A stretch of 33,127 nt of DNA from an uncultured Burkholderiales bacterium (GTDB lineage: Bacteria > Pseudomonadota > Gammaproteobacteria > Burkholderiales > Burkholderiaceae_C). Where the stretch lies: NCBI GenBank assembly GCA_903844825.1, contig CAIMVC010000031.1, forward strand, positions 1 through 33,127, given 5' to 3'. Position numbers and translations under genes: made by a program. The notes beneath the pieces are model-generated. The model worked only from the letters and a program-made list of their open reading frames with translations. It had not been told where the DNA came from and ran no database searches. Positions 2,102 through 18,770 of the stretch are shown piece after piece; positions within the stretch are counted from its first letter, which is position 1; each line of letters starts with the position of its first letter.

Positions 2102-2973
2102 GCTGGACTTTGCGTTACGCCCCACATCTGGGCTATCGGCCGCCCTTTGAGCCGCAGTTCAGCGCGCTGGTGGGCAGTCAGGACCCGGTCGAGCATGTGC
2201 GATTCGCCGCCGATCAGGATTTTGCGGGCGTGCTTTATGCTGCCGCGCGCGGGCGCACACCTGAAGAGCAAAAACGCGTCGGCCAAGCCATTGCGCAGCA
2301 CTCTCTGGAAGCAGGGTGCCTGCTCTACACCACCTTCGATCAGTTGCGTAACACGAGCTGGGCCATCGACAGTGAGGATGCAAGGCGCTGGATTGCGGCC
2401 GAGCTCGCGCAGGCCATTGCCGCAGCGCACCGCGTGGGGTCGCGGCACCTGGCGGTACTCGGTGGTGCAGTTCCACAGCAACCTCTCGGCCCGCAACACC
2501 AGGCTTTTGCCCGTAACCTGCGCTTTGCGGCCGACCTCGCGGGGCGCGATGGCTTGGTGTTGTGTCTTGAGACATTGAACAGCCACAGCGTGCCTGGGAT
2601 GTTGTTGCACCACATGCCTGAAGCGCTTGCTGTTGTGCGTGCTGCGGACCACCCCGCCGTGCGCCTGATCTTTGACACCGCGCACGTGCAGGCCATGGAT
2701 GGCGATCTGCTCACCCACCTGGAGCAGGCCTGGGACCACATCGAGATCGTGCAACTGGCCGATCATCCCGGCCGCCTTGAACCAGGCACGGGGGAAGTCG
2801 ATTTCCCCGGGGTGTTGCGGGTGTTGGCCCACCGCACCTACAAGGGTCTGGTCGAGCTCGAACACGGCTGGGCTGAGCCAGGCATTGATAGCGAGCGCCG
2901 CGGGCTTGACACCTTGCGCCGCCTCGACGGCGCAGCCGCATCCCATTTATCGTCCCAAGGAGATGCCCCATGA
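2098..2973 (+). CDS. Hydroxypyruvate isomerase-like TIM-barrel protein
   Basis: About 291 residues from a GTG start at 2098 that overlaps the preceding TGA (GTGA) and is preceded by AAAGGAAG at good spacing; an in-frame ATG further upstream lies inside the previous gene and is not needed. Features of the Hyi/xylose-isomerase-like TIM barrel are seen: LRYAPHLGY at the N-terminus, the metal ligand Glu in LCLETLNSH, Asp-x-x-His in FDTAHVQ, QLADHPGR, and a final Glu in VELEHG. Hyi converts hydroxypyruvate and tartronate semialdehyde, but many paralogues act on other sugars or keto compounds. Its place between a hydroxyacid dehydrogenase and a hydrolase agrees with small hydroxyacid metabolism. 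Family is firm; exact substrate is not. Confidence 0.88.
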   Translation: MSWTLRYAPHLGYRPPFEPQFSALVGSQDPVEHVRFAADQDFAGVLYAAARGRTPEEQKRVGQAIAQHSLEAGCLLYTTFDQLRNTSWAIDSEDARRWIAAELAQAIAAAHRVGSRHLAVLGGAVPQQPLGPQHQAFARNLRFAADLAGRDGLVLCLETLNSHSVPGMLLHHMPEALAVVRAADHPAVRLIFDTAHVQAMDGDLLTHLEQAWDHIEIVQLADHPGRLEPGTGEVDFPGVLRVLAHRTYKGLVELEHGWAEPGIDSERRGLDTLRRLDGAAASHLSSQGDAP

Positions 2974-3854
2974 AGGCCCAGCACGACACCGTCGCCGACA
3001 TTGAGCGGCGGCTAGCAGCATTCGGCACGGTATTCGATGGTGAGGTGCTCGGCGCCACCCGTGCGATTTACCGACCGCTGCTGGACCTTGAGCCCGTGGG
3101 TGTGGAGCAACTTGAGCAGGCCTATGGGCCGCATGAGCGACACCGCCTTGACGTGTACCGCCCCGCCGGCACCAGCCTCGCGACTGCGGTGTACGTGCAC
3201 GGTGGCGGCTTCGTCGCCGGCGATAAAAACGGCGATGGTGTGTTCTACCGCAACGTGGGCTGCTGGCTGGCACGCCAAGGCTTCACGGCGGTGTTACCCA
3301 ACTACCGACTGGCTCCAGGCCATGGTTGGCCCGCCGGTACCCGTGACCTGCAATCGGTGCTGCAATGGGTGCAGCAGGACTTACAGACCAATGACGCCGA
3401 CGCACCGGTGGTGCTTTGGGGTCAGTCCGCAGGCGCCAGCCATGTAGCGTCATGGTTGTTTGATGACGCCGCGCGCGGCGCTGCACCCGCCCTGGCTGTC
3501 GATGGTGTGCTGCTCATGAGCGGCCTCTACCGAGCCGAGGCACCCCTGCCTGCGGGGCCAAAGGCGTATTTTGGTGAGGACACCGCGCTGTATGCGCAGC
3601 GCTCGCCCTTCACGCATGTACGCCCGATGAGCACACCGCCGGTGTGGCTGGCGGTGGCGGAGCTTGACCCGGGCTGGATCGCCGAGCAGACCTACGCGCT
3701 CGCGCATGCGCTGACGCGGGCCAACGGAAGGAGTCCGCCGTTGCTGTTTAACCGGGGTCACAACCACGTGTCGACCGTGCAGAGCCTGGGCTCGCCGCAG
3801 CGGGATGTCGCAGACGAAGTTCTGCGGTTCCTGTTGTCGGTAGTTGACCGTTAG
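2970..3854 (+). CDS. Alpha/beta hydrolase (HSL-type esterase/lipase or formamidase-like)
   Basis: 294-residue alpha/beta hydrolase of the hormone-sensitive-lipase-like group. The oxyanion-hole motif HGGGF is in YVHGGGFVAGDK, the nucleophile elbow is WGQSAGAS, the acid is probably the D of VAELDPGW and the histidine is in NRGHNHVST near the C-terminus, so the triad is complete. The start is the ATGA overlap with the isomerase-like gene, preceded by AAGGAG. No signal peptide is seen, so it should be cytoplasmic. Related proteins include carboxylesterases and kynurenine-formamidase-like enzymes. In this operon it may release a hydroxyacid from an ester or amide, which is inference from context only. 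Confidence 0.88.
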   Translation: MKAQHDTVADIERRLAAFGTVFDGEVLGATRAIYRPLLDLEPVGVEQLEQAYGPHERHRLDVYRPAGTSLATAVYVHGGGFVAGDKNGDGVFYRNVGCWLARQGFTAVLPNYRLAPGHGWPAGTRDLQSVLQWVQQDLQTNDADAPVVLWGQSAGASHVASWLFDDAARGAAPALAVDGVLLMSGLYRAEAPLPAGPKAYFGEDTALYAQRSPFTHVRPMSTPPVWLAVAELDPGWIAEQTYALAHALTRANGRSPPLLFNRGHNHVSTVQSLGSPQRDVADEVLRFLLSVVDR

Positions 3855-4072
3855 ACCCGAAGGCCCAAGTGCACCCGAGCTTTCTCGAACGCGCCCAACA
3901 AAAATTCGAAGATGCTGTGTCTGACATGCGGGGTCTTGCATTGCCTTACCTGCAACATGCGCTCGCAGGCGCGTGTTTCCATTAAGGCGATGCTCAGGTC
4001 GCCGGCGCCAGAGAGCAGGCAGGCCCACGCCGAAGAGAAGCCAGGATTGGCTAGATTGAGAAAAATGCGCAC

Positions 4073-5839
4073 ATGACTACCGGATCCCCTGAAGAACTGC
4101 GGCACCCAGAGTCCCCCACAAAGCCTGGGCGCAACGGCGCCGAGACCCTGGTCGATACGCTGGTGGCCTGTGGCATCGACACCATCTTTGGCTACCCCGG
4201 CGGCGCCGCGCTGCCGCTATATGACGCGTTGCACGGCCAACCGGCGATACGCCACGTTCTGGTCCGTCATGAACAGGCGGCCGTACACGCTGCCGAAGGT
4301 TACGCGCGTACCACCGGCCGGCTCGGTGTCGTGCTAGTGACTTCCGGGCCGGGCGTGGCCAATACCATCTCCGGCCTGCTCGATGCCATCAGCGATTCGG
4401 TGCCCGTGCTTTGCATCAGTGGCCAGGTCGCTACCGCAGTGATCGGCACGCAGGCCTTTCAGGAGTGCGATGCGCTTGGCATGACGCGCCCGGTGACGAA
4501 ATGGAACCACCAACCGCGCGATGCCAATCACATCGCCGAGGCGGTGCGCGATGCCGTGCGCATCGCGCTCGGCGGCCGGCCCGGTCCTGTGCTGTTGGAC
4601 CTGCCCAAGGATGTGCAGTTGCAGCAGGTGAACGCCTCGTCGCCCTCTCAAGCTGCTGTCGTTGCGAACCCGGCTCCCTGGCCCACGCAAGAGGCTTTGC
4701 GTGCCGCCGCCGCGCTCATCGCACAAGCACAAAGACCGGTGCTATACGGCGGTGGCGGCCTTATCAATTCCGGAGAGATCGCTTGCGAGCTCTTCTCAAG
4801 CCTGGCGCGCGACTGGCATCTGCCGACCACGCTCACGCTCATGGGTCTGGGCGCATTGCCCGCCTCCGATGCTCACTTCCTCGGCATGCTTGGGATGCAT
4901 GGCACCGTGCAAGCTAACCTCGCCATGCACCACGCGGATCTCATCATTTGTGTAGGTGCGCGTTTCGATGACCGAATTACCGGCCGCTTGAGTGACTTTA
5001 GTCCGGGCGCGCGCAAGATCCACATCGACATCCACGCCGCCAACATCGGCAAGGTGGTGCCAGTGGACGTGCCGCTGACAGGCGACTGTGGTGCGGTGCT
5101 CGCAGCGCTTAGGTCCTTGCTGCCGCCGCTACCGCCCTCGCCGGATCGTCTGGCGGGCTGGTGGTCTCGGATCGATCATTGGCGTTCGGCCAACTGTCTG
5201 GCTTTCACGCCTGATGAAAACAACATCCTTCCGCAACAGCTGATGCATGCGCTCCAGGCCCGACTGGATGGTCGCGACGCGATCGTATCCACCGACGTAG
5301 GACAGCACCAAATGTGGGCCGCGCAGTATCTGCGCATGGAGCGGCCCAGGCGCTGGCTCACTTCCGGGGGCGCCGGCACGATGGGCTATGGCCTGCCAGC
5401 AGCCATCGGCGCGCAGATCGCGCATCCGGACAAGACCGTTGTCTGCGTGAGTGGAGATGCTTCGGTGTTGATGAAGATCCAGGAACTTTCGACCGCCGTG
5501 CAACACCAGACGCCGGTGAAGCTGGTCTTGTGCAACAACGGCTTTATGGGCATGGTGCGGCAGTGGCAGCAGCTCAACCACGGGAATCGCCTGAGTCACA
5601 GCTGGAACGAGGCGCTGCCTGACTTCGTGGCGCTGGCGCATGCCTTTGGCTGGGGTGCACGCCGCGTGGATCGTCCTGAGGAACTCGACGACGCTCTGGC
5701 TCAATGCCTAGACTACGGCGGCCCGTTTTTTCTCGACGTACGCGTGTCTCCACTGGAAAACTGCTACCCCATGATGCCTGCCGGCTGTGGTCACCAGGAA
5801 ATCATGCTTGCCGATGGCGTTTGGTATGACCAGCGCTAA
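4073..5839 (+). CDS. Acetolactate synthase large-subunit-like ThDP enzyme
   Basis: 588 residues with the three ThDP-enzyme domains in order: PYR domain ([14 protein letters not shown], then [15 protein letters not shown]), central domain, and PP domain with the ThDP motif beginning [10 protein letters not shown] and ending LCNNG. The catalytic Glu of the PYR domain is present (E67 in [16 protein letters not shown]). Glyoxylate carboligase carries Val at that place, so despite the hydroxypyruvate-isomerase-like neighbour this is not a typical Gcl. [18 protein letters not shown] is close to the IlvB pattern. No ilvN-type regulatory subunit follows, which suggests a catabolic or unregulated carboligase. 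It stands 218 bases after the upstream operon, so it may have its own promoter. Exact donor and acceptor are unknown. Confidence 0.87.
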
Positions 5840-7072: not shown

Positions 7073-7759
7073 ATGCAAGCTTCCAGCCAGACGGCCCGCG
7101 AACTCTTTGAAGCGATCAAGGCCAACCCGACCCGTAAGCGCTTCGGTTTTGGCAAGATGCCGGCACTGATCAACATCGACCTGCAAAAGGCCTACACCTG
7201 CGTCGGTGAGTTCGCTACGGCCTACGAAACCGATCCGCGCCAGTTAGAACACGTCAACACGCTGGCGGCCGAGTTTCGTGCCAAAGGCTTTCCGGTGGTC
7301 TGGACTTATGTGGCCTACATGGACTCTGGCGAAGACTGCGGTGTCTGGGGCACGCGCACCGACACCCCGGATTCGCTGCAAAACATCAAGGTTGGCAGCC
7401 GCCGGGCCGAGTTTGACGACCGCCTGGTGATCGACCACAAGCGCGACATCGTCATCAACAAGCGCATGGCCTCGGCCTTTTTTGAAACCAATCTGGGCTC
7501 GGTCTTCAACTTTCATGGCGTCGACACCATCGTGGTCACCGGCGGCTCGACCTCGGGTTGCGTGCGCGCTACGGTGGTTGACAGCATTTCCCGCAGCTTT
7601 CGCACCATCGTGCCCGAGGAGTGCGTGGCCGACAAGCACGAGTCGCCGCATTTCGCCAACCTCTACGACATGGGCCTGAAGTACGCCGATGTGCTGTCGG
7701 TGGCCGAGACCATCGAGCAATTGCGCCAGGTGCCCTCGGCTGCCGGAGCCCGGCCTTGA
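7073..7759 (+). CDS. Isochorismatase-family cysteine amidohydrolase 1 (N-carbamoylsarcosine/maleamate amidase type)
   Basis: 228 residues with the isochorismatase-like hydrolase fold and the complete catalytic triad of the amidase branch: D36 (NIDLQKAY), K130 (INKRMASAF) and C163 (GGSTSGCVRATV) after the usual cis-peptide region. Characterised relatives hydrolyse amides or carbamoyl groups, for example N-carbamoylsarcosine, maleamate, ureidoacrylate and nicotinamide. The ~33-residue N-terminal extension resembles the N-carbamoylsarcosine amidase subgroup. It is the first gene behind the operator-controlled promoter and is joined by a TTGA overlap to the PuuE-like hydrolase gene, so both probably act on the same substrate series: ring opening, then amide hydrolysis. 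Confidence 0.87.
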   Translation: MQASSQTARELFEAIKANPTRKRFGFGKMPALINIDLQKAYTCVGEFATAYETDPRQLEHVNTLAAEFRAKGFPVVWTYVAYMDSGEDCGVWGTRTDTPDSLQNIKVGSRRAEFDDRLVIDHKRDIVINKRMASAFFETNLGSVFNFHGVDTIVVTGGSTSGCVRATVVDSISRSFRTIVPEECVADKHESPHFANLYDMGLKYADVLSVAETIEQLRQVPSAAGARP

Positions 7760-8673
7760 AACGCGATCCCGCTTTATACGACTACCTGCCCTACAACGCG
7801 CAGCGCCCGGCCATCCGCTGGCCCAACGGCGCCCGGGTGGCGTTTTGGGTGGCGCCCAATGTCGAGTTTTACGAGCTCAACCCGCCGCGCAATCCGGCCC
7901 GCGCGCCCTGGGCTCGGCCGTCGCCCGATGTGCTTAATTATTCTTACCGCGACTACGGCAACCGGGCTGGCTTTATGCGCATGCTCGAGGCCATGAAGCG
8001 CTGCAACATGCGCGGCAGCGTCTCGCTCAACGTGGCCATGTGCGAACACCACCCCGAAGTCATCAAGGCCTGCGCCGACAATGGCTGGGAGTTTTACTCC
8101 CACGGCACCTACAACACACGTTACCTGATGGGCATGAACGAAGCGCAGGAGCGCGCCGTGATCCAGGACTCCATCGACACCATCAAAAAGCACACCGGGC
8201 AAAAGCTCGACGGCTGGCTGGCTCCCGCGCTGACCTATACGCCCAATACCATGGACCTGGTGGCCGAGATGGGGCTGACCTATATTTGCGACCTGTTTCA
8301 TGACGACCAGCCCGGCCCGGTCAAGGTCAGGCAGGGTCGGCTGACCAGTGTGCCGTACTCGCTGGAGATGAACGACACCATCGTCTACAACGTCAACCTG
8401 GTGCAGCCTCGGCGCTATGCCGACATTCTCAAGCGCCAGTTCGACCGTCTGTATGAAGAGGGCGAGCAGTCGGGCACCGTCATGTGCATTCCGCTGCACC
8501 CCTATCTGGTGGGCCAGCCCTACCGCATGGCGGCGTTTGAAGAGGCGCTGTCTTACATCACCAGCCACGACAAGGTCTGGCTGGCCACCGGCCGTGAAAT
8601 CGCCAAGCATTTCAACGACCATTACTACGATGCCTTTGTCAAAGCCGCCCACCCGGTGGGGGAAGCACCATGA
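7756..8673 (+). CDS. PuuE-like polysaccharide-deacetylase-superfamily hydrolase 1
   Basis: 305 residues from a TTG start whose last two bases form the preceding TGA (TTGA overlap), with GGAG 7 bases upstream; no ATG lies nearby. The fold is that of the NodB/polysaccharide deacetylase superfamily, but the first metal motif TFDD is replaced by VAPNVEF, and the H-x3-H motif is reduced to H116 in YSHGTYNTRY. H248 in IPLHPYLVGQPYR and the RDYGNR block (residues 65-70) are conserved with the three paralogues in the window. This pattern matches the PuuE (allantoinase) and cyclic-imide hydrolase branch, which opens cyclic ureides or imides, more than sugar deacetylases. No signal peptide is seen, which also speaks against cell-wall work. 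Confidence 0.82.
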   Translation: MKRDPALYDYLPYNAQRPAIRWPNGARVAFWVAPNVEFYELNPPRNPARAPWARPSPDVLNYSYRDYGNRAGFMRMLEAMKRCNMRGSVSLNVAMCEHHPEVIKACADNGWEFYSHGTYNTRYLMGMNEAQERAVIQDSIDTIKKHTGQKLDGWLAPALTYTPNTMDLVAEMGLTYICDLFHDDQPGPVKVRQGRLTSVPYSLEMNDTIVYNVNLVQPRRYADILKRQFDRLYEEGEQSGTVMCIPLHPYLVGQPYRMAAFEEALSYITSHDKVWLATGREIAKHFNDHYYDAFVKAAHPVGEAP

Positions 8674-9608
8674 GCGCCATTGAACTGCCCGCCAACTACC
8701 TGGACTATCCGCAGCGCCGCTATGGCATGGACCATGACCGCTACGACTGGTCCATGCTCACCGATCGCAAGCCGGTTGCATGGCCTGGCCAGGCGCGTGT
8801 GGCCTTATGGGTGGTGCCGGCGCTGGAGTGGTTTCCCCTGAACATGGCGGGCGTGCCCTTCAAGCCGCCAGGGGCCATGCAGACCGCGTACCCGGACCTG
8901 CGCCACTACACGCTGCGCGACTACGGCAACCGCGTGGGTATTTTTCGGATCATGAAGGCGCTTGAAAAGCATGGCATTCGCCCATCGGTGGCAGTCAATG
9001 CGGCCGTGGCGGTGCGCTATCCCTCGCTGATTCGCGAGTGCACGCAGCGTGGCTGGGAGATCATCGCCAACGGTCTGGATATGGACCATCTGCATCACGC
9101 GGCGCTGCCGGTCGAGGCCGAGAAAAAACTGATCGACACCACGCTGGAGATTTTGCGCAGCGCCAGCGGCCAGGCCGTACGCGGCTGGCTGTCGCCGGCC
9201 AAGTCGGAGTCGGCCGCCACGCTGGACTTGCTCGGTGCGGCCGGACTCGACTACGTGTGCGACTGGGTCAATGATGACATGCCGTACGCCATGCGAACGG
9301 CTAGCGGAGCGCTGCATGCCATGCCGCATCCGATCGACATCGACGACTACACCATCCTGGTGCAAAACCACCACACCGAAGACGACTTCCGTGATCAGCT
9401 ATGCGACCAGTTCGACCTGCTCTACAAGGAGTCGGCGACCCAGGGTGGGCGCGTAATGGCGATTTCGCTGCACCCCTGGGTGATTGGCCAGCCCTACCGG
9501 ATGCGGGCGCTGGAAGAGGCGCTGGCGCACATCATGCGACATCAAGGGGTGTGGGCGGCGACGGGAAGCGAGATCTTGGATGCCTGGAAAGCCTCCCAGG
9601 CCGCCTGA
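8670..9608 (+). CDS. PuuE-like polysaccharide-deacetylase-superfamily hydrolase 2 (divergent active site)
   Basis: 312 residues, ATGA overlap with hydrolase 1. It shares the blocks LRDYGNRVG, GWLSPAKSES, CDWVNDDMP and LHPWVIGQPYRMRALEEAL with its paralogues. The histidine of the SHG motif is replaced by Asn134 in EIIANGLDMDHLHH, although histidines follow shortly after. It could be a catalytically altered enzyme, a substrate-shifted one, or a partner subunit of hydrolase 1. Length and absence of a signal peptide are the same as in the others. Regulation should follow the operator at 6975. Confidence 0.8.
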   Translation: MSAIELPANYLDYPQRRYGMDHDRYDWSMLTDRKPVAWPGQARVALWVVPALEWFPLNMAGVPFKPPGAMQTAYPDLRHYTLRDYGNRVGIFRIMKALEKHGIRPSVAVNAAVAVRYPSLIRECTQRGWEIIANGLDMDHLHHAALPVEAEKKLIDTTLEILRSASGQAVRGWLSPAKSESAATLDLLGAAGLDYVCDWVNDDMPYAMRTASGALHAMPHPIDIDDYTILVQNHHTEDDFRDQLCDQFDLLYKESATQGGRVMAISLHPWVIGQPYRMRALEEALAHIMRHQGVWAATGSEILDAWKASQAA

Positions 9609-9657
9609 CAGCGTGGCGCTGAGGTCAGCGCCCTGGTCGGCCGCAGCGTCTGGCGGC

Positions 9658-10221
9658 TCAGGCCGGGCGCGGCGCGCTCTCGGCCAGGTCGTTCCACACG
9701 TCCTGCCGCTGGATCAGACCCTCAGCGACCTCAAAGCGGTCAATGAAGCGAATGCCCGAAAACGCCGAGCCGTCCAGCCATACGCCGTGCAGCGTGCCAA
9801 AGCAGTAGACCACCGTCATGCCCTCGCTCCAGCTTTCGTCAAAGCGCTCGTAGTCCTTGGCGATGCTGTTGTAGCGCTGCCGGGACCAGGCCAGCAGTTC
9901 TTCGAGCTTCTGCATGCGTGCCTGGCCGGGAAACTGCATCACAAAGCCGGGTGCCAGCAGCCTGGCCGCTGCCGGCAGATCGCGGTTTTGCATCAGACCC
10001 AGAAATTCATGCACCAGGGCGCTGGCGTCCGCGCATTCCGGCCCGCCCTTGGAAAACACCCGGCCTTCGCGCTGGTAGGTGTGCGCATGGTTGACAAACA
10101 CGGTGGTCCCCGCATTGGCAGCCGCAATGACCGAGCGCGCGGCCAGTGCCACGCGGCCGACCAGGCGCTCTTCGGCCTGGGCGCTGTAGCCGGGTAGCAA
10201 GGTGATGGAGATAACGGGCAT
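9658..10221 (-). CDS. 4-oxalocrotonate-tautomerase-like domain fused to SnoaL/NTF2-like domain
   Basis: 187 residues read on the minus strand from an ATG preceded by AAGGA. The first ~60 residues start MPVISITLLPG, with Pro2 where 4-OT tautomerases have their catalytic base, then a helix with EERLVGRVA and VFVNHAHTYQREGRVFSKGG, the usual tautomerase length and layout. Residues ~65 to 180 form a SnoaL/NTF2-like alpha+beta barrel (VHEFLGLMQNRDLPAAARLLAP ... GIRFIDRFEVAEGLI). Both domains are in one uninterrupted frame, so the fusion is real in this sequence. The gene is divergent from hydrolase 3, 35 bases away. A role in isomerising or shuttling an unsaturated intermediate of this pathway is plausible but unproven. 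Confidence 0.72.
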   Translation of the reverse strand: MPVISITLLPGYSAQAEERLVGRVALAARSVIAAANAGTTVFVNHAHTYQREGRVFSKGGPECADASALVHEFLGLMQNRDLPAAARLLAPGFVMQFPGQARMQKLEELLAWSRQRYNSIAKDYERFDESWSEGMTVVYCFGTLHGVWLDGSAFSGIRFIDRFEVAEGLIQRQDVWNDLAESAPRPA

Positions 10222-10256
10222 GGTGCCATCCTTGGATAATCTTTGTAGGGGCGATC

Positions 10257-11216
10257 ATGCCCGTTTCTTTGAAGGTCCGCATGTCCCTTGATGGCAGTGA
10301 CCGCATCAAGTACTCGGCTGCGCCCGGGCGGGTGCCCCTGCGCTGGCCGGGCGGCGCCCGTGTGGCCTTGTGGGTGGCGCCCAACATCGAACACTACGAG
10401 TACCTGCCCGAAAAAATTCGCGTGCGCAATCCCTGGCCGCGCACGCCGCACCCCGACATTCTGGGCTACGGCCTGCGCGACTATGGCAACCGGGTGGGCG
10501 TCTGGCGCCTGATGGAGGTCTTCGACCGCTACCGTCTGCCCTGCACGGTGTCGCTGTCCATGTCGGTGCTGGACCTGTACCCCGACATCGCCCAGGCCAT
10601 GCTCGAGCGCTCCTGGGAGTTCATGTCGCATGGCCTGTACAACACCCGCTACCACTGGGGCCTCAGTGAGGACGAAGAACGCGCCGCGATTGACGAGTGC
10701 CAGCAGATTCATCGCCGCATCACCGGCAAGTCATTGACCGGCTGGTTCTCGCCCGCGGCCTCCAACACGCTGAGCACGCCCGACCTGGTGGCTGAGGCCG
10801 GCATCCGCTATTTGTGCGACCTCTACCACGACGACCAGCCGACACCGATTCAGGTGCGCCAGGGCGAGCTCACCAGTCTGCCCTATTCGATGGAAATCAA
10901 CGACAGCATTGCCTGGCGCCGTGGCCAGGAAGCGGCGGCGTTTGCGCAAAAAATCTGCGACGAGTTCGACACCCTGTATGCCGAGGGGGCCGAGCACGCC
11001 AAGGTCATGAACATCGCCGTGCATCCCTTCATCATGGGGCAGCCGCACCGCATCGAGCACCTGGCGCGCGCGCTCGACTACATCCTGGGCCATGACGGCG
11101 TGTGGTGCGCCACCGGCTCCGAGATCGTGGCCAGTTACCGGGCGCAAATGGCAGCGGATTCAGCACCGGATTCAGCGTCAAATTCTTCGCCAGGCCCTTC
11201 GTCGGTGACCGCCTGA
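10257..11216 (+). CDS. PuuE-like polysaccharide-deacetylase-superfamily hydrolase 3
   Basis: 319 residues from ATG 10257 (AGGGG at 5 bases), or 311 from ATG 10281, which also has a good GAAGG site; alignment of N-termini with hydrolase 1 favours 10281. It is the closest paralogue of hydrolase 1: WVAPNIEHYE, LRDYGNRVG, MSHGLYNTRY, CDLYHDDQPTP, VRQGELTSLPYSMEINDS and VHPFIMGQPHR align almost block for block. The same non-canonical active site (no TFDD, single SHG histidine) argues for cyclic amide/imide or ureide hydrolysis. The C-terminus has a Ser/Ala/Pro-rich tail of ~20 residues not seen in hydrolase 1. The separation of two near copies suggests duplication within the cluster. Confidence 0.82.
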   Translation: MPVSLKVRMSLDGSDRIKYSAAPGRVPLRWPGGARVALWVAPNIEHYEYLPEKIRVRNPWPRTPHPDILGYGLRDYGNRVGVWRLMEVFDRYRLPCTVSLSMSVLDLYPDIAQAMLERSWEFMSHGLYNTRYHWGLSEDEERAAIDECQQIHRRITGKSLTGWFSPAASNTLSTPDLVAEAGIRYLCDLYHDDQPTPIQVRQGELTSLPYSMEINDSIAWRRGQEAAAFAQKICDEFDTLYAEGAEHAKVMNIAVHPFIMGQPHRIEHLARALDYILGHDGVWCATGSEIVASYRAQMAADSAPDSASNSSPGPSSVTA

Positions 11217-11302
11217 GCCCGGCGCAGCCGACGCCAAATTAGATCAAGCCCTTCAACGCCTTCATCTCCCGCACTCCCTGCACTCCCTTCACGGAAGCCT
11301 TC

Positions 11303-12007
11303 ATGTCAACACCTGCCGACTACATTCGCGCCTTCATGCCCGAGCGCCCCGTTCATACCGAACAGGCCGCGCTGCTGATCATCGACATGCAATACGCCAC
11401 CGGCTCGCGCCAGGGCGCCCTGGGGCGCAAGCTCAAGGCCGAAGGCTCGAGCGTCGGCGACTACCGTTTTGCGCGCATCGAGCAGTCGGTGCTGCCCAAC
11501 ACCTTGCGCCTGCGCGAACTCTTTACCGCGCTGGGCCGTCCGGTGGTGCATGTGACCATTGGCGCCGCCTTGCCCGACGCCGCCGACGCACCGGTTCACA
11601 TGCGCAAACTGTTTGTCGAGTTCAACAACATCGTGGGCAGCCGCGAGCACGAGATCGTCGATGAGCTCAAGCCCCGTGCCGGTGAGCATGTGCTGCGCAA
11701 GACCACCATTGGTGCCTTCGCGTCGACCAACATCGATAGCCTGCTGCGGGCGCTGGGCTGCGAGCAACTGTACCTGGCCGGCGTGTCCACCAACATGTGT
11801 GTGGAGACCACGGCACGCGAGGCGGCCGACCGCGGCTACCTGGTCACCCTGGTGGAAGACGCTTGCGGCACCACCCACGAAGACCTGCACCAGGTGACCT
11901 TGCGCAACTTTCAGCGTCTCTTTGGCCGCGTCCGTTCGACCGACGAGACCCGGCTGGAATTGAGCGCCGCTGTGGCGACCCCGGTGACCGCTGCTAACGT
12001 GCTCTGA
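11303..12007 (+). CDS. Isochorismatase-family cysteine amidohydrolase 2
   Basis: 234 residues; complete triad D28 (LLIIDMQYA), K133 (VLRKTTIGAF) and C166 (GVSTNMCVETTAREA). The STNMCVE motif and the overall layout fit the amidase branch (biuret, ureidoacrylate, carbamoylsarcosine-like hydrolases). GGAAG stands upstream of the ATG. It is clearly different from amidase 1 in the loops around the triad, so the two may act on different half-amides or on successive steps. It follows hydrolase 3 by 86 bases and precedes the racemase-like gene by 12, giving a second 'ring hydrolase plus amidase' unit parallel to 7073-9608. Confidence 0.87.
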   Translation: MSTPADYIRAFMPERPVHTEQAALLIIDMQYATGSRQGALGRKLKAEGSSVGDYRFARIEQSVLPNTLRLRELFTALGRPVVHVTIGAALPDAADAPVHMRKLFVEFNNIVGSREHEIVDELKPRAGEHVLRKTTIGAFASTNIDSLLRALGCEQLYLAGVSTNMCVETTAREAADRGYLVTLVEDACGTTHEDLHQVTLRNFQRLFGRVRSTDETRLELSAAVATPVTAANVL

Positions 12008-12019
12008 AGCGCTGAGCCC

Positions 12020-12784
12020 ATGAAAAAAATTCTGATCATTGTTCCCTTTGCCATGTCGGCCGAGAACCTGGCGCTGCGCCGGCAGCAACTGCAGGGGCTG
12101 CAGTTCGGGCCTGACCTGCAGTTTGAGTACCGCGCGGTCAAGGCCGGGCCGGTGAACTACTCGAGCCATCACGACTTTGTGCTGGCGGATGCCTGCATTT
12201 TCGAAGCCGGCTGTCGCGCCCAGGACGAAGGTTTTGCGGCGGTCTGCATCGACACCATGAGCGACTCGGGCGTGGCGGCGCTGCGCTCGGTGCTCGACAT
12301 TCCGGTGTTTGGCCCCGGCAAGGTGTCCATGCTCGCTGCGCTGATGCTGGGCGACCGGTTTTCAATCCTCACCATGGCCAGTCGCTGGAAGCCGCTTTAC
12401 AAAAAAGCACTCGACGAGTTGGGCTTGCATCACAAGTGCGCGTCGGTGCGTGCCATCGAAGTGCCACCCGACAACCAGAACCTTCTCTCTGGCAAGGAAG
12501 CTGATGTTTTTCCGCTGCTCGAAGCCGCGGCCATGAAAGCCATTGAGAGCGACGGCGCCGAAGTCATCATTCTGGGCTCGACGACCATGCACCAGGCGCA
12601 TGCCTATTTGCAAAGCCGTCTGCCGGTGCCCATCATCAACCCCGGACCTTTGAGTTACAAAATGGCCGAAGCCGCGCTGGCCCTGGGCCATTCGCACAGC
12701 CGTGTAGGCTATCCCCGCCCCATGCATCCGCGGCTGGACATGCTCACCGCCATGATGGACGCGGCGCAGCGTTCGCTGAGCTGA
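12020..12784 (+). CDS. Asp/Glu/hydantoin racemase superfamily protein with altered catalytic residues
   Basis: 254 residues of the Asp/Glu/hydantoin racemase superfamily (HyuE-like): MKKILIIVPF start, DIPVFGPGK middle block, INPGPLSYKMAE end. Active racemases use two cysteines. Aligning 'VVIACF.D.G' with the first site (VCIDTMSDSG) places Thr79 there, though C76 is near. At the second site, usually GCAGM, the protein has GSTTM with Ser187. A two-base racemase reaction therefore looks unlikely and an isomerase, decarboxylase or hydrolase-like role should be considered; relatives in the superfamily include maleate isomerase and arylmalonate decarboxylase. It is 12 bases after amidase 2 and almost surely in the same operon. 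Confidence 0.8.
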   Translation: MKKILIIVPFAMSAENLALRRQQLQGLQFGPDLQFEYRAVKAGPVNYSSHHDFVLADACIFEAGCRAQDEGFAAVCIDTMSDSGVAALRSVLDIPVFGPGKVSMLAALMLGDRFSILTMASRWKPLYKKALDELGLHHKCASVRAIEVPPDNQNLLSGKEADVFPLLEAAAMKAIESDGAEVIILGSTTMHQAHAYLQSRLPVPIINPGPLSYKMAEAALALGHSHSRVGYPRPMHPRLDMLTAMMDAAQRSLS

Positions 12785-12802: not shown

Positions 12803-13636
12803 ATGACTCTGCTGCTCAGACCCGAACAGGTGCAGGCCTACGAGCGCGACGGCTTTGTTTTCCCGGTTGACGTGCTCACGCCGCAAGAAGTCAGTCAGTG
12901 GCGAGCTGAGCTGCAGGCCTGGGAACAGGCGCGTGGCGCGGCCATCGACTTTCCCGAAAAGTCAAAGTCCTATCTGCTCTTTAACTGGGCCGACCAACTG
13001 GTACACCACCCCCGGATTCTGGATGCGGTCGAAGACTTGATCGGCCCCGACATCCTGGTCTATCACTCGACGCTGTTCATCAAAGAAGCCCACACGCCCG
13101 CCTATGTGCGCTGGCACCAGGACAGCTCTTATTTTTACCTCGAGCCGCACCTGCACGTGACCGCCTGGGTCGCACTGTCGGATGCCAGTGTGCGGGCAGG
13201 CTGCATGCGCGCCTTGCCCGGCAGCCACCGCTGGGGCGCTTTTGCGCATGACGACAAGCCTGACCCGCTGAACATGATCAAGCGTGGCCAGGGCATCAGC
13301 GATCGCTTTGACCACGAGAGCGGCACCCTGATGCCGGTGTCCGCCGGACAGATGTCGCTCCACCACACCGATCTGGTCCATGCGTCGGGCGCCAACGACA
13401 ACGATGACCGCCGCATCGGCTACGCCATCAGCTACATTCCCGCGCAGGTGCGGCCGATCGGCGAGATCCGGCCGTCGGCTCTGCGCGTGCGCGGACGCAG
13501 CCACGGTCATTTCGCCGACGAGCAGCGTCTTGATGCGCCCCTGTCGCCGCTGGCGTATGAGCGGCATGCCGCCGCGCTGGCCTTGTTCAGGGCGCGCCAG
13601 GACGCAGGATTTATACCCACCGGAGCCAACACATGA
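12803..13636 (+). CDS. Phytanoyl-CoA dioxygenase (PhyH)-family Fe(II)/2-oxoglutarate oxygenase
   Basis: 277 residues with the PhyH double-stranded beta-helix pattern. Iron ligands are H105 and D107 in YVRWHQDSSYF and H193 in DLVHASGAND; the 2-oxoglutarate-binding Arg is R203 or R204 in DDRRIGYAIS. RALPGSHRWG is the usual PhyH loop. Enzymes of this family hydroxylate an unactivated carbon of small molecules or CoA esters. The ATG follows the racemase-like gene by 18 bases and the stop overlaps the next gene by ATGA. In this cluster it may introduce the hydroxyl needed for later steps, which is inference only. Confidence 0.87.
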   Translation: MTLLLRPEQVQAYERDGFVFPVDVLTPQEVSQWRAELQAWEQARGAAIDFPEKSKSYLLFNWADQLVHHPRILDAVEDLIGPDILVYHSTLFIKEAHTPAYVRWHQDSSYFYLEPHLHVTAWVALSDASVRAGCMRALPGSHRWGAFAHDDKPDPLNMIKRGQGISDRFDHESGTLMPVSAGQMSLHHTDLVHASGANDNDDRRIGYAISYIPAQVRPIGEIRPSALRVRGRSHGHFADEQRLDAPLSPLAYERHAAALALFRARQDAGFIPTGANT

Positions 13637-14064
13637 TGCCCCCCCTCTCACCAGAATCATCAGCCTCATCAGCTTCGTCCGTCCTGTCCTCAGCAGGCCT
13701 GACGGCTCTGGCCGAGCGTTACTTCGCCGCGGTCGACAGCAAAAATGTGGCGGCCGCGCTGGCCTGCTTTGCGCCGCAGGCCAGCTTCACGATTGCTACT
13801 TACAACACCCACTACCAGGGTCGCGACAGCGCCATTGCCGGCATGTTCGAGCGGCTCAACAAGCGCTACGCCCAGGTCTGGCACGGCGACTTCGACCACG
13901 TCAGCGACGTCCCCCATCAGCGCATCGCCAGCCGCTTTCGCGTGGAAAACATCACCCATGAGGGCCAAAAATTGATCAAGAACAATTGCAACTTTTTCCG
14001 CGTCGAGGGTGGCCTGTTTGTCGAGGTGTTTGTCTATATGAGCGGCGAGAACTCGCTGACTTGA
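13633..14064 (+). CDS. SnoaL/NTF2-like protein
   Basis: 143 residues starting at the ATGA overlap with the dioxygenase gene. A Ser-rich, probably disordered start (~20 residues) is followed by an NTF2/SnoaL-like cone: LAERYFAAVDSKNVAAALACFAPQ, then GRDSAIAGMFERL and paired beta strands to the end. Such proteins are polyketide-cyclase-like isomerases, dehydratases or small ligand-binding domains, often the beta subunit partner of oxygenases. Coupling to the PhyH gene suggests it acts on the oxygenase product. A different SnoaL domain is fused to a tautomerase at 9658-10221. Confidence 0.75.
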   Translation: MMPPLSPESSASSASSVLSSAGLTALAERYFAAVDSKNVAAALACFAPQASFTIATYNTHYQGRDSAIAGMFERLNKRYAQVWHGDFDHVSDVPHQRIASRFRVENITHEGQKLIKNNCNFFRVEGGLFVEVFVYMSGENSLT

Positions 14065-15065: not shown

Positions 15066-15095
15066 TCTCAGGCGCTCTCAGTCGCTCTCAGGCGC
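15066..15095. repeat. Three tandem 10-base repeats at the 3' end of the MmgE/PrpD gene
   Basis: TCTCAGGCGC, TCTCAGTCGC, TCTCAGGCGC follow each other without gap. The stop codon of the minus-strand MmgE/PrpD gene (15078-15080) lies inside the array. The first and third units are identical. Slipped replication is the simplest origin. Confidence 0.75.
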
Positions 15096-16430
15096 GCGCT
15101 CCAGCAGCGCCGTCCATTCGGGCAGTGGCAACTGCAGGGCTGCCAGTCCCAGCGTGGCCTCAAGCACGGCGTGGGCGTGCGCGGCCGGCCCGACGCGTTG
15201 GGTCAGGTCCATGAATTTGTGGCGCAACTCGGCGCGTGTGTAGGGGGCGGCGTCGTCACCGCGGTTGACGCCGGCCTCGCCAGTGACTTGCATGCCGTTG
15301 CCCAGCGTGATCACGACCCTGGCCGGGCGCTCCAGTGGCAGCCGGCGGGTCATGGCGGGGTCTTCGCTGACTTCGACTTTTTGCGCCAGCGCCAGCACGG
15401 CCGGGTCGCGCACCGCGTTCCAGGTGAAGCTCGCCAGTGCGCTGCTGCCGTTGACCAGCCGGGTTGCCACTGCAAAGGGCACGGAAAACTTGGCGGCCAG
15501 CGTGTTGCGCGGTGACTTGTCCTTGAGTTCGGCGGCCAGGTTGTAGGTCTGCACGTCAATGCGTGCAATGTCGGCGGGCGAGGGCAGCTGGCCCTGCGCG
15601 GCGAGCTGGTCCAGTGCGTCGAGCGTGCCGTGGTTGTAGCGGCAGCATGAATGCAGCTTGAAGTAGTTGTGCATCAGGTGCCAGTCGCGGTCCAGGTCGA
15701 GCAGGAGTGATGCGGTGTCGAATTTTTCGGAGATGATTTTTCCGAGCAGCGAACTCAGGCCGTCGCTTTCTCCGGTAAAGCCGCTCTCGGCCAGTTGCAG
15801 GGCCAGCAAGCCGTTGCGGTTGCTCAGGCCAGCATAGCCGTTGCGAACCAGCCCGCCTTCGAGCATGGTCTGCTTGGACGTGGCGGTGGTCAGCGATGAG
15901 CCGATGTTGATGGTTTCGCGCATGGCGTCAGCGTTCATGCCGGCGATGCGGGCGCAGGCCGCTGCCGCAGCGACGGTGCCCCAGGTGCCGTGCGGGTGCA
16001 TGGCGCCGCGCAGGGCCGAGGCGGCGCCGAGTCGCGAGCCGACTTCGTAGCCGGTGACGACGGCCGACAAAAAGACACTGGCAGGTGCAGCACGCTCCTG
16101 GGCCAGCGCCAGCGCCGCCGGAATCACGTGCACGGCCGGATGCCCGCGCGAGAAGCGGTTGCCTTCGTCCATTTCCAAAAAGGTGCCGGCCGTGCCGTTG
16201 ACCAGTGCCGCCACGTCGGCGGTGCCGCGGCGGCCCAGACCCACCAGGGCGGCGGCCGAACCGGCTGTTTGTCGGGTGGCCAGGGCCCGAAGTTCGGGCT
16301 CGGCCGAACCGGCCACGATGGCGCCCACGGTGTCGGCCAAAATCCAGCCGACCTGCTCCTGGATGCTGCCGTCCAGTGCGTTGTAGTCCACGCTGGCGGC
16401 AAAGCTGCTGAAGGTGTCGAGGTAGTTCAT
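15078..16430 (-). CDS. MmgE/PrpD-family protein (2-methylcitrate dehydratase-like)
   Basis: 450 residues, full length for MmgE/PrpD. Visible family features are the helical N-terminal domain (ILADTVGAIVAGS), the FLEMDEGNRFSRGHPAVHVIPAALALAQ active-site segment, HPHGTWGTVAAAAACARI, and KLHSCCRYNHGTLDAL in the second domain. Members dehydrate 2-methylcitrate, act on cis-aconitate (IRG1-type decarboxylases) or have unknown dicarboxylate/tricarboxylate substrates. No PrpC or AcnD gene is adjacent, so a classic methylcitrate cycle is not supported here. With the LeuCD-like and isocitrate-lyase-like genes of region C it could handle a substituted tricarboxylate or dicarboxylate. It is 29 bases after the minus-strand hydrolase 4, probably one operon. 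Confidence 0.88.
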   Translation of the reverse strand: MNYLDTFSSFAASVDYNALDGSIQEQVGWILADTVGAIVAGSAEPELRALATRQTAGSAAALVGLGRRGTADVAALVNGTAGTFLEMDEGNRFSRGHPAVHVIPAALALAQERAAPASVFLSAVVTGYEVGSRLGAASALRGAMHPHGTWGTVAAAAACARIAGMNADAMRETINIGSSLTTATSKQTMLEGGLVRNGYAGLSNRNGLLALQLAESGFTGESDGLSSLLGKIISEKFDTASLLLDLDRDWHLMHNYFKLHSCCRYNHGTLDALDQLAAQGQLPSPADIARIDVQTYNLAAELKDKSPRNTLAAKFSVPFAVATRLVNGSSALASFTWNAVRDPAVLALAQKVEVSEDPAMTRRLPLERPARVVITLGNGMQVTGEAGVNRGDDAAPYTRAELRHKFMDLTQRVGPAAHAHAVLEATLGLAALQLPLPEWTALLERAPESD

Positions 16431-16459: not shown

Positions 16460-17365
16460 TTATGTCGGGCTGGGCTGGATCTGGTCAAGCAGGGCGCCAG
16501 GGCTGGTCCAGCTCACGTCGCTGCGCTGCTTCAGGCCCATCAGCAGTTGGCGCAGCATGGCGATGCGGCTGGGCATTCCGCAGAGCCAGGGGTGCAGTCC
16601 CAGGCCGAACACGGCGGCGCGCTGGTGCCCGACCGATTCGATCGCCAGCCGGTCGAAGGCTGCCTGGCTGAGCTCGGCCCAGGCGCGGGGTTCGATGTTG
16701 CGCAGCCATTGGCACTGCACGTCGTCCCATTCGCTGGACAGGGGGATCGACAGCAAGCGCGCGTCGGCAGCCCGTCCCGGGGCCGGACTCATCCAGTACG
16801 GCTGATCGTCATTGACCCAGTCCAGCGTGTAGGCCATGCCCGCCTCGGCCAGCAAGTGGTAGGTGTCCGGGCTGCTGCCCCAGTCCTGGCTGAGCCAGCC
16901 GCGGGGCCGCTGGCCGGTGGCTTGCGTGAGCGTGGCCAGGCTGCTGCGGATGTGCTCGCGTTGCTCGTACAGCGACTGCTCGGAATGCATCATGCGCGTG
17001 GCAGCGATGCCATGGGCCAGCCACTCGCAGCCCCAGTCATTGAACTGCTGCACCAGCGCGGGCAGGCGCTGGGCGGCCATTGCATTGGCGGCAATGACGG
17101 GCCGGATGCCGGCCTGCTGCAGGGCCTCGATAACCCGGAAAATACCAACGCGCAAACCATATTCGCGCTGCGACCAGTTGCGGTAGTCCGGATGAAAACT
17201 GCCGAACTCGCCTACAAAGCGTGGGTCGCGCAGACTGCCCGGTGGCGACTCGAAGTCCCAGTGCTCCAGAAACAACACGGCGTAGGCCTGCAGGCCGGGC
17301 GGCAGCCGTGCTTCACCAGCTTGGCGCAGAGGCAGAGCGGAGTAGGGGTAGAGGCTGTGATCCAT
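16460..17365 (-). CDS. PuuE-like polysaccharide-deacetylase-superfamily hydrolase 4
   Basis: 301 residues, most divergent of the four paralogues. Shared blocks are QREYGLRVGIFRVIEAL, LAHGIAATRMMHSEQ, RGWLSQDWGSSPD, LDWVNDDQPYWM and LHPWLCGMPSRIAML. The His of the AHG motif and the C-terminal HP are present; the first motif reads LFLEHWDFE instead of TFDD. It is transcribed away from the binding-protein gene, so the region 17366-17520 with its palindrome probably serves both directions. Function as a cyclic amide/imide or ureide hydrolase is inferred from the PuuE-like pattern and the neighbours. Confidence 0.8.
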   Translation of the reverse strand: MDHSLYPYSALPLRQAGEARLPPGLQAYAVLFLEHWDFESPPGSLRDPRFVGEFGSFHPDYRNWSQREYGLRVGIFRVIEALQQAGIRPVIAANAMAAQRLPALVQQFNDWGCEWLAHGIAATRMMHSEQSLYEQREHIRSSLATLTQATGQRPRGWLSQDWGSSPDTYHLLAEAGMAYTLDWVNDDQPYWMSPAPGRAADARLLSIPLSSEWDDVQCQWLRNIEPRAWAELSQAAFDRLAIESVGHQRAAVFGLGLHPWLCGMPSRIAMLRQLLMGLKQRSDVSWTSPGALLDQIQPSPT

Positions 17366-17467: not shown

Positions 17468-17520
17468 AAATCAAACCCGATTCCCAAACACCTGATTTGC
17501 CTTTCATTGAGGATTTGCCC

Positions 17521-18738
17521 ATGATTACCCACGCCAAGCTGTCTCGTCGATTGATTCTCCAGGCTGGCGCTGCCAGCGCCGCCCTGGGTGCGCCAGGCCT
17601 GCTGCTGGCGCAAGCCAAGCCGATCAAGATCGGTCTGATCCATCCCGTCAGCGGCGGTCTGGCCTACAGCGGCAGCCAAGGTCGTCTGGGGTGCCAAATG
17701 GCGATTGACGCTATCAACGCCGCTGGCGGCATCAAGTCCATGGGTGGCGCCAAGCTCGAGGCCGCACTGGGCGACTCCCAGTCGCGTCCCGAAGTCGGCG
17801 TCAGCGAGGTTGAGCGTTTGCACCAAGACGGTGTGTCGGCCTATGTGGGCTGCTTTTCCAGCGCCATCGCGCTGCCCGCCACGCAGGCGGCGGCCAAGTA
17901 CAACACCCCGTTCATGATTGACGTGGGCGTGTCCGATCTGATCGTCACGCGCGGCCTGAAAAACGTCTTCCGCCTTGCACCCGGTTTTGGCAAGTGCGCC
18001 GATGACGCCATCGTGGCGTTGGGTGAAGTCAACAAGGCTGCTGGCAATGTGGCCAAGACGGCCGTGCTGGTGCACGAGGAGTCCGAGTTCGGAACCGGCA
18101 CCGCCAAGTTGCTGGCGGGCAAGTTGCCCTCGATCGGTGTGCAGGTGGCTGACACCATCAAGCACGCCAACCCGACGCGTGACTTCTCCAACGTCGCCTT
18201 GCGCATCAAGAGCCTCAAGCCCGACCTCGTGATCATGAGCAACTACCAAAACGAGTACGTGCTGCTGGCCCGTACCCTGCATCAGCAAAAGGTCGACTTA
18301 GCTGGCATGTTCAGCGTTCTCGGTGGCGGCTTTAACTACAAGCTGGTCAAAGAGCAGCCCCAGGTGGCGCAGCACATGATGGACTTCAACCACTGGTTCA
18401 ACCCGCGCAACCCGGCCGCCATGGAGATGAAGAAGAAAGTCGAAGCCACGGGCAACCTGTTCACCTTCGAAGTCTACTGCGGCTGGAACTCGGTCATGTT
18501 GTATGCCGACGCCCTGGAGCGTGCCAAGACGGCGGACAAGGAAAAAGCCATCGCCGCTTTGGAGAGCAGCACCTGGTCCAACCACTTCATGCCCTATGGC
18601 GACACCAAGTTCGTTGGCGGTCAAAACACCGGTGGCCGCGCCGCGCTGCTGCAGGCCACGGCAACCGATATCGAGGTGGTCTGGCCTAACCAGTTTGCCT
18701 CGGTCAAGCCCGTGTTCCCGCGCCCCAAGCTCAGCTGA
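17521..18738 (+). CDS. ABC importer periplasmic substrate-binding protein (LivK/amide-binding type I)
   Basis: 405 residues from ATG 17521 with GAGGA 7 bases upstream; a TTG start 24 bases earlier is less likely. The N-terminus SRRLILQAGAASAALGAPG is a twin-arginine-like signal ending LLLAQA, so export, perhaps folded by Tat, is expected. The mature part is the two-lobed peripla_BP_6 fold: KIGLIHPVSGGLAYSGSQ, then AINAAGGI, YVGCFSSAIALPATQAAA and a C-terminal lobe with FEVYCGWNSVMLYADALE. Such proteins bind branched amino acids, urea, short amides or aromatic acids. Position before livHMGF-type genes defines it as the importer's receptor. A terminator-like hairpin follows the gene, typical where the receptor is made in excess. 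Confidence 0.92.
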   Translation: MITHAKLSRRLILQAGAASAALGAPGLLLAQAKPIKIGLIHPVSGGLAYSGSQGRLGCQMAIDAINAAGGIKSMGGAKLEAALGDSQSRPEVGVSEVERLHQDGVSAYVGCFSSAIALPATQAAAKYNTPFMIDVGVSDLIVTRGLKNVFRLAPGFGKCADDAIVALGEVNKAAGNVAKTAVLVHEESEFGTGTAKLLAGKLPSIGVQVADTIKHANPTRDFSNVALRIKSLKPDLVIMSNYQNEYVLLARTLHQQKVDLAGMFSVLGGGFNYKLVKEQPQVAQHMMDFNHWFNPRNPAAMEMKKKVEATGNLFTFEVYCGWNSVMLYADALERAKTADKEKAIAALESSTWSNHFMPYGDTKFVGGQNTGGRAALLQATATDIEVVWPNQFASVKPVFPRPKLS

Positions 18739-18770
18739 TAGGTTGGCGGTTTTCTCATCGCTTTGAAGTT

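Follow-up and report, generated by a model that had tools for sequence, protein, structure and literature searches.

Paired PuuE-like proteins and isochorismatase-type amidases in a Burkholderiales gene cluster: a candidate pathway for substituted cyclic imides

Which compounds are broken down by a bacterium that sets hydrolases resembling the allantoinase PuuE side by side with amidases of the isochorismatase family? The question is raised by contig CAIMVC010000031.1 (C31) of an uncultured Burkholderiales bacterium (assembly GCA_903844825.1; 4.66 Mb, 464 contigs), and the window analyzed here is that whole 33-kb contig of 33,127 nucleotides. A sequence-only reading of positions 7073-12784 had proposed two parallel units, each of one PuuE-like hydrolase and one amidase, followed by a hydantoin-racemase-like protein and serving the catabolism of cyclic amides, imides, or ureides. 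The open reading frames are indeed present there and match PF01522 and PF00857, and the count of four PuuE-like proteins and two amidases holds, with PUU1 to PUU3 inside this stretch and PUU4 outside it. The coupling of the two families is confirmed; the make-up of the units is different, since the conserved unit consists of an amidase (ISO1) and two PuuE-like proteins (PUU1 and PUU2). From the sequence, we favor reading the cluster as an island of genes that degrade substituted cyclic imides, with a full route to a 2-oxo acid and a carboxylate, a view that we believe about as readily as we doubt; that ISO1, PUU1, and PUU2 act as one functional module is surer than the substrate.

The recurrent amidase and PuuE-like unit

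The genes on which the argument is built are the following (coordinates in the window; overlaps in base pairs, bp).

7073-7759, + strand: ISO1, isochorismatase-family cysteine amidase, proposed half-amidase (PF00857, 101 bits, cut-off 27)
7756-8673, + strand: PUU1, TTG start and 4 bp overlap with ISO1; active-type PuuE-like protein, proposed ring-opening (imidase) subunit
8670-9608, + strand: PUU2, 4 bp overlap with PUU1; eroded PuuE-like protein, proposed to be a subunit that is altered or not catalytic
10257-11216, + strand: PUU3, second active-type PuuE-like hydrolase
11303-12007, + strand: ISO2, second isochorismatase-family amidase (PF00857, 127.5 bits, cut-off 27)
12020-12784, + strand: racemase-like protein of the Asp/Glu/hydantoin-racemase family (PF01177, 106.3 bits, cut-off 31), without either racemase cysteine
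16460-17365, - strand: PUU4, partner-type PuuE-like protein adjoining the MmgE/PrpD gene (PuuE model E 3e-25)

Relatives were collected by searching an alignment of five ISO1 sequences against one genome per species. At least 593 stretches matched and at least 498 of them encode an ISO1 relative, the closest among the matches listed belonging to Comamonadaceae-type bins (Comamonadaceae, Polaromonas, Rhodoferax). The counts below rest on the best 80 of these at least 498 relatives; PUU1 was taken as present when it lay within 700 bp of ISO1, and neighbor counts refer to the fetched stretches (1.01 Mb for the 64 loci that have PUU1). Genes of the relatives were called by a rough script, and some starts and neighbors are wrong (the ISO1 gene of L020 was missed and recovered by tblastn).

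PUU1 stands beside ISO1 in 64 of the 80 loci; 11 loci have ISO1 only and five end too soon to tell. Because it recurs so often, the link between ISO1 and PUU1 is not due to chance, and a tighter neighbor rule gives 57 of 71 loci with room. PUU2 is found in 62 of the 64, the remaining two (L035, L059) stopping at a contig end within 1 kb downstream of ISO1. The spacing from PUU1 to PUU2 has a median of -4 bp, and 66 of 72 pairs are separated by at most 20 bp. Searches started from the PuuE-like proteins lead to the same pair. PUU2 matched 14 of 369 genomes of the class at E <= 1e-40, its own included; in four other genomes with matches at E <= 1e-90 a second PuuE-like gene adjoins each time (one match carries a stop), which is of the PUU1 type in G347 and G386, while the other nine genomes show only 32-37% identity. 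For PUU1, matches at E <= 1e-60 lie in nine of 299 genomes of the family, counting its own and three that reach only 45-48% identity, and matches at E <= 1e-75 in 10 of 398 genomes of the phylum, again counting its own and one that reaches only 45%.

Active and eroded PuuE-like proteins and the amidase slot

The putative active site of PUU1, formed by E37, H116, N120, D179, D183, D184, N206, D207, and H248, is kept in all 82 PUU1 sequences, and the equivalents of E37, H116, N120, and H248 are present in 24 of 24 PUU3 sequences. PUU2 has drifted: of 79 sequences, 38 have N and 33 have H at the position of H116, and 61 have E and 18 have Q at that of E37 (the PUU2 set contains two fusion C-halves, L029 and L030, and the PUU1 set some distant single proteins). 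PUU1, PUU2, and PUU3 exceed the PF01522 cut-off and PUU4 falls slightly under it (21.0 of 23.1 bits). On the PuuE model TIGR03212 (cut-off 424.6) PUU1 to PUU4 stay far below with 151.1, 125.9, 158.1, and 88.7 bits, and a separate true PuuE with 480.2 bits is encoded on another contig of the same genome. The AlphaFold2 (AF2) model of PUU1 (mean predicted local distance difference test, pLDDT, of 82) is closest in fold to PuuE (1z7a/3cl6, template modeling score, TM, 0.77-0.79), with ordinary enzymes of carbohydrate esterase family 4 (CE4) far behind. Passages of one study give Asp14, His86, and His90 as the zinc site of HpPgdA and His247 as the residue holding a water, and state that PuuE binds no metal (PMC3084791). 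In our alignment His86 corresponds to H116 of PUU1, His90 to T121, and His247 to H248 (HpPgdA numbers are alignment positions less 33 residues, presumed to be an expression tag); for Asp14, in a stretch outside the printed alignment, we read E37 as the counterpart. As His90 aligns with T121, the second metal-binding histidine is gone in PUU1, where this position is T in 75, S in 6, and G in 1 of 82 sequences, and the Asp-His-His metal site of CE4 is absent.

Four polypeptides of 634-647 amino acids, from four genomes, join a PUU1-type half to a PUU2/PUU4-type half, and a MmgE/PrpD homologue adjoins. One of them is encoded in the same genome as the window (L030, contig C335, 6943-8850), where it stands beside the MmgE/PrpD gene and an amidase-signature gene, the latter on the far side, and an ATP-binding cassette (ABC) transporter is also present. 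A tree of 78 rows unites PUU1 and PUU3 with the fusion N-halves (support 96/99) and, with weaker support (98/78, not a starred branch), PUU4 with the fusion C-halves. PUU2, PUU3, PUU4, and PUUE are not single groups, and PUU2 goes cleanly neither with the PUU1/PUU3 type nor with PUU4. The rows are a random part of the sets (22 of 82 PUU1, 22 of 79 PUU2, 10 of 24 PUU3, and 9 of 19 PUU4); the tree has long branches, contains two fusion halves in duplicate, and includes two outgroup rows taken in error (PUUE_L142 and PUUE_L144), and it is used only for the first grouping and, more weakly, for the second. We infer that PUU1 and PUU2 may together form a two-subunit ring-opening hydrolase. Of the 80 loci, 15 carry PUU4, and all but one of these also have PUU3 (14), the exception (L040) ending 2.6 kb downstream of ISO1; in L031, which keeps the surrounding cluster, PUU3, ISO2, and PUU4 are missing together. 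On this pattern, the three would form a second set that differs in specificity.

Both amidases combine a PF00857 match with the Asp-Lys-Cys residues of isochorismatase-type cysteine amidases, which we take to be the catalytic triad of the family: D36, K130, and C163 are conserved in at least 97% of 96 ISO1 sequences, and D28, K133, and C166 among 16 aligned ISO2 sequences. Neither reaches the models of RutB (40.1 and 80.6 of 377.95 bits for ISO1 and ISO2) or BiuH (38 and 83.2 of 370). The nearest chains to ISO1 in the PDB are N-carbamoylsarcosine amidohydrolase (26st/1nba), two isochorismatase-family hydrolases, and then 3ot4/3uao, presumably maleamate amidohydrolase.

In some relatives the place of the amidase is taken by other enzymes. 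On plasmid pLDW-10 of Arthrobacter crystallopoietes (L116, 5231-11824) a hydroxylase of the xanthine dehydrogenase type is followed by the PUU1-type and PUU2-type genes and these by an asparaginase; here an imide may be made by the hydroxylase and then opened by the pair. In L133 an amidase-signature gene lies ahead of the PUU1/PUU2 pair and an NCS1-type permease behind it, and Agrobacterium pAt1D1108a combines the pair with a transporter and an amidase. Asparaginase acts on a side-chain carboxamide, and therefore the swap points to half-amides; an asparaginase or amidase-signature enzyme in this slot agrees better with a carboxamide than with a carbamoyl group.

Separately, locus L093 (6314-10696) contains an ISO1-type amidase without PUU genes, adjoined by a luciferase-like monooxygenase, a short-chain dehydrogenase/reductase (SDR), and an amidase, possibly a RutA/RutB-like oxidative ring opening.

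The carbon side and the competing explanations

The sequence-only reading had closed the system at 12784. The genes best linked to the triad of ISO1, PUU1, and PUU2 (MmgE/PrpD, transporter, GntR, LeuC, LeuD, flavoprotein, and lyase) reach to 29656, and the remaining features are these.

9658-10221, - strand: SnoaL_2 protein between PUU2 and PUU3 (PF12680, 29 bits), accessory
12803-13636, + strand: PhyH-family dioxygenase (PF05721, 120.6 bits), accessory
13633-14064, + strand: SnoaL-like protein (PF12680, 42 bits), accessory
15078-16430, - strand: MmgE/PrpD-family protein, a candidate alkylsuccinate isomerase (50.5 bits on the NCBIfam PrpD model, far under the cut-off of 950)
17497-22131, + strand: livKHMGF-type ABC transporter, assigned by eye from the translations; proposed uptake of substrate or product
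23167-24669: AtuA-family protein (PF07287), preceding the GntR-LeuC-LeuD run
24666-25484, + strand: GntR-family regulator, by eye from the translation
25514-26827, + strand: LeuC/HacA/DmdA-type hydratase large subunit (TIGR01343, 411.5 bits, cut-off 385.7; TIGR02086, 414.3, cut-off 410.15)
26824-27312, + strand: LeuD/DmdB-family hydratase small subunit (TIGR02087, 163 bits, cut-off 108.95)
27309-28733, + strand: flavin adenine dinucleotide (FAD) protein resembling fumarate reductase and flavocytochrome c, proposed alkylsuccinate dehydrogenase/reductase (PF00890, 175.7 bits; TIGR01813, 209.6, under the cut-off of 285.45)
28799-29656, + strand: lyase of the isocitrate lyase/phosphoenolpyruvate (PEP) mutase family, proposed C-C bond cleavage (PF13714, 149.5 bits)

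The hydratase large subunit fails the leucine-pathway LeuC model TIGR00170 (240.1 of 560.25 bits). The lyase is below the cut-off of the methylisocitrate lyase PrpB (TIGR02317, 285.7 of 354.4), and no NCBIfam model passed its cut-off for it; the 2,3-dimethylmalate lyase structure 3fa3 is among its matches, not the best of them, and it contains a KRCGH motif, presumably of significance in these lyases. By eye, an SDR gene lies between the transporter and the AtuA-family gene, and the latter also occurs in several relatives. The SnoaL_2 protein is found in 21 of the 80 loci at 62-81% identity and in L095 at 55%; its N-terminus, Met-Pro, is reminiscent of a 4-oxalocrotonate tautomerase segment, with no family match, and the SnoaL_2 domain forms its C-terminal end. 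Genes upstream of ISO1 (1106-5839), of the glyoxylate-reductase-like, hydroxypyruvate-isomerase-like, and acetolactate-synthase types, might act on a glyoxylate or 2-oxo acid that the pathway yields. They were rejected as core members: in L031 to L034 they are absent and only an alpha/beta hydrolase adjoining ISO1 is found. The thiamine diphosphate (TPP) enzyme of 588 amino acids was likewise rejected as a glyoxylate carboligase: its 693.1 bits on the acetolactate synthase model TIGR00118 exceed the cut-off of 538.35, and it falls short on both carboligase models.

A LeuC homologue is present in 16 of the 64 loci. About 1.1 would be expected, given 101 aconitase-family matches (split pieces counted) across 20 genomes that total 89 Mb. 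A lyase-family gene occurs in 17 of the 64, a PrpD homologue in 20, and the flavoprotein in six; each of these four genes is found in none of the 11 ISO1-only loci. CaiB, by comparison, occurs in four of the 64 and in three of the 11. At least one of LeuC, the lyase, and 3-hydroxy-3-methylglutaryl-CoA (HMG-CoA) lyase is seen in 26 of 64 versus 0 of 11 (Fisher P 0.013; Poisson P 1e-13 for the neighbor enrichment, both treating the loci as independent, which they are not). For 14 of the 48 loci whose fetched stretch has no LeuC the genome was searched; in nine of them the ISO1 contig carries a LeuC of 78-87% identity, 10-17 kb away from the amidase gene. Among 13 loci picked independently of ISO1 similarity (at least 50% PUU1 identity, with the window itself and the cut-off locus L021 left out), six have LeuC, four the lyase, and eight at least one of LeuC, lyase, and HMG-CoA lyase; L022 is apparently the same contig as L106 of the ISO1-chosen set.

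The strongest link of the triad to the carbon side is given by runs in one direction. Allopusillimonas (L084) has ISO1-PUU1-PUU2-LeuC-LeuD-lyase and Rhizobium rhizoryzae (L113) adds the flavoprotein; like these two, L079, L080, L090, L092, L114, and L117 show the triad and LeuC in one direction, and Sphingomonas pJE1 is a further named example of a one-direction run. In the window and L099 a homoaconitase/DmdA-type protein occupies the hydratase slot, and in L084 and L114 the slot goes to one that exceeds the cut-off of the leucine-type LeuC model, as if the hydratase step rather than the subfamily were kept. Homologues of the livKHMGF-type transporter lie beside the triad in Alcaligenaceae bacterium 429 (L079), Paenalcaligenes suwonensis (L080), and L024, and a GntR gene is divergent from PrpD-ISO1-PUU1-PUU2 in L052 and L065. 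Genes of the HMG-CoA lyase and CaiB-type CoA-transferase types join in Sphingomonas pJE1, Sphingobium pTomTYG65b, Acidiphilium, and a Burkholderiales bin. With LeuCD, the isocitrate lyase family, and MmgE/PrpD as recurrent neighbors, dicarboxylic acids of the unsaturated and hydroxy kinds are indicated. The bacterium reuses these families in other clusters of its genome (L146 on C125, L145 on C2, L147 on C323, and L148 on C166), which contain varied sets of ISO-type amidase, MmgE/PrpD, flavoprotein, lyase, LeuCD, and liv-type transporter.

From the gene families, their order, the residue conservation, the recurrence in several lineages, and the natural PUU1/PUU2-type fusion, we infer each reaction, the heteromer, and the substrate class of the following scheme. 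PUU1 with its partner PUU2 would open the ring of a substituted maleimide or succinimide to a half-amide, probably metal-free as in PuuE, and ISO1 (ISO2 for the PUU3/PUU4 set) would free ammonia to leave a substituted succinate or maleate. For saturated acids, the MmgE/PrpD protein may adjust the stereocenter and the FAD protein form the double bond. The LeuC/LeuD-type hydratase would then add water to give a hydroxy-dicarboxylate, which the isocitrate-lyase-family enzyme could split between two carbons into a 2-oxo acid and a carboxylate, the product pair being set by the substituents. In some relatives, a CaiB-type CoA-transferase and an HMG-CoA-lyase-type lyase may act instead or in addition.

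Several observations weigh against this scheme. The loci are akin and so not independent, and many are fragments of metagenome bins. ISO1 matches N-carbamoylsarcosine amidohydrolase more closely (E 2e-30) than it does 3ot4/3uao (E 6e-22), and a ureido acid would fit; 11 of the 80 loci, L093 among them, have ISO1 without PUU1; and in Salipiger the full triad and amidases have HyuA/HyuB-type genes alongside, so that hydantoins may be substrates for some members. No LeuC, lyase, or HMG-CoA lyase homologue was seen in 38 of the 64 fetched stretches, nor in those of five of the 13 independently picked loci (L020, L023, L129, L131, L133), and five of the 14 searched genomes have no LeuC on the ISO1 contig. 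L041 has PUU3 without ISO2 or PUU4 in the 10 kb downstream. To our knowledge, no member has a known activity.

The best surviving alternative, unlikely but to be taken seriously, is that two separate pathways, one made up of the imidase/amidase units and the other of the LeuCD-lyase unit, share one genomic island. The 10-17 kb between the units in window-like clusters and the 38 of 64 fetched stretches that have the triad but no LeuC, lyase, or HMG-CoA lyase would agree with this, whereas the one-direction runs of triad and LeuC in several lineages and the lack of LeuC, lyase, and HMG-CoA lyase in all 11 ISO1-only loci argue for a joint function.

Rather unlikely is a catabolism of hydantoins or other cyclic ureides, in which PUU1/PUU2 would be the hydantoinase, ISO1 a carbamoylase yielding an amino acid, and the racemase-like protein would racemize the ring. 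PuuE, the closest fold to PUU1, opens a hydantoin ring. The best PDB match of ISO1 and the HyuA/HyuB genes of Salipiger also point this way, as does the racemase-like gene, which follows ISO2 as the sequence-only reading had said. Its AF2 model has the PF01177 fold and is closest to allantoin racemase (3qvk/3qvj, TM 0.80). However, at the cysteine positions of 3qvj, residue 79 is T in 21 and A in one, and residue 187 is S in all 22 of 22 distinct rows (T79 and S187 in the window); two copies outside these rows (L081, L121) are also without both cysteines, and a homologue is seen in just 18 of the 64 loci and in none of the 11 ISO1-only loci. Moreover, the recurrent neighbors process dicarboxylates and not amino acids, and an asparaginase occupies the amidase slot of L116. 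An amidohydrolase-type hydantoinase or HyuC-type gene was not recognized among the window genes scanned or read by eye (the liv genes, SDR, GntR, a metallophosphoesterase-like gene, and two terminal genes being unscanned). Of the earlier proposal, a PuuE-like opener with an isochorismatase-type amidase for a cyclic amide or imide thus stands, and the ureide/hydantoin branch is unsupported because the racemase cysteines are missing, the PuuE scores are low with a true PuuE elsewhere, and the neighbors are of the dicarboxylate type.

That the proteins are extra PuuE paralogues breaking down allantoin is hardly credible: they share a superfamily with PuuE, and the upstream stretch 1106-2973 encodes proteins resembling glyoxylate reductase and hydroxypyruvate isomerase, but their scores of 89-158 against 424.6, the 480-bit PuuE on another contig, and the absence of a recognized allantoicase or ureidoglycolate gene among the called window genes speak against it. 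Just as improbable is N-deacetylation of sugars or cell wall polymers, for although Pfam and the public annotation of many plasmid records name polysaccharide deacetylases, all 82 PUU1 rows have Thr, Ser, or Gly in place of the second metal-binding histidine, the neighbors are an amidase and acid-processing genes, and the closest folds are PuuE and its kin, with ordinary CE4 enzymes far behind.

Known systems and what the cluster may mean

The logic of imidase and half-amidase is already known. Blastobacter sp. A17p-4 is said to degrade cyclic imides by an imidase, a half-amidase, and then enzymes of the tricarboxylic acid (TCA) cycle, a course from imide to half-amide to dicarboxylate that resembles the favored scheme (compared by description, not by sequence). 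Maleimide hydrolase (EC 3.5.2.16) is listed from this strain (PMC1940265). In the window, by contrast, PuuE-like proteins come two to a unit, the amidase is of the isochorismatase type, and there are hydratase and lyase genes for a substituted acid. In the nicotinate pathway of Aspergillus nidulans, the PuuE-related HxnM is assigned as a cyclic imidase and HxnN as an amide hydrolase, the same succession as proposed here; however, the passages concerned name one imidase protein, a six-membered imide, and another amide hydrolase, and contain no hydratase/lyase stage (PMC9304392). Methylsuccinate isomerase, another MmgE/PrpD family member, likewise handles a branched succinate, in a methylsuccinate utilization cluster whose route runs via CoA esters, where the window has the flavoprotein and LeuCD instead (PMC12290011). 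PuuE itself shares with PUU1 the fold and the missing second metal histidine; the PUU proteins differ in being far under the PuuE cut-off and in standing beside a divergent partner and an amidase. The nicotinate fermentation of Eubacterium barkeri employs the LeuCD-family hydratase DmdAB and 2,3-dimethylmalate lyase on substituted maleate and malate, with no imide stage. The window resembles it in its LeuCD-family hydratase and isocitrate-lyase-family lyase, the latter under every NCBIfam cut-off. What is new is the pairing of PuuE-like proteins, the role of half-amidase for an isochorismatase-type amidase, and the coupling to a route for substituted dicarboxylates; no description of the gene set was found in the open-licence PubMed Central (PMC) literature, where absence is weak evidence.

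In its widest and distinctly speculative form, which we consider improbable, this would be a widespread pathway mineralizing alkyl-substituted maleimides and succinimides by a heteromeric PuuE-like imidase of an active and a degenerate subunit. Maleimides from the oxidation of chlorophyll, haem, and bilins are candidate natural substrates and could make the pathway the missing last stage of tetrapyrrole decay. If the favored reading is true, proteins named polysaccharide deacetylases in many Proteobacteria, an Arthrobacter plasmid, and one Thermomicrobiales bin would be nitrogen-ring hydrolases with a partner, an amidase, and a carbon route. The pairs of active and eroded proteins, which also occur fused, would be a clean test case for why an enzyme retains a degenerate partner, and the genes would be candidates for the breakdown of imide-containing drugs, fungicides, and pigment breakdown products. 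A mis-named gene set would thereby become a pathway that is testable with one isolate and one compound.

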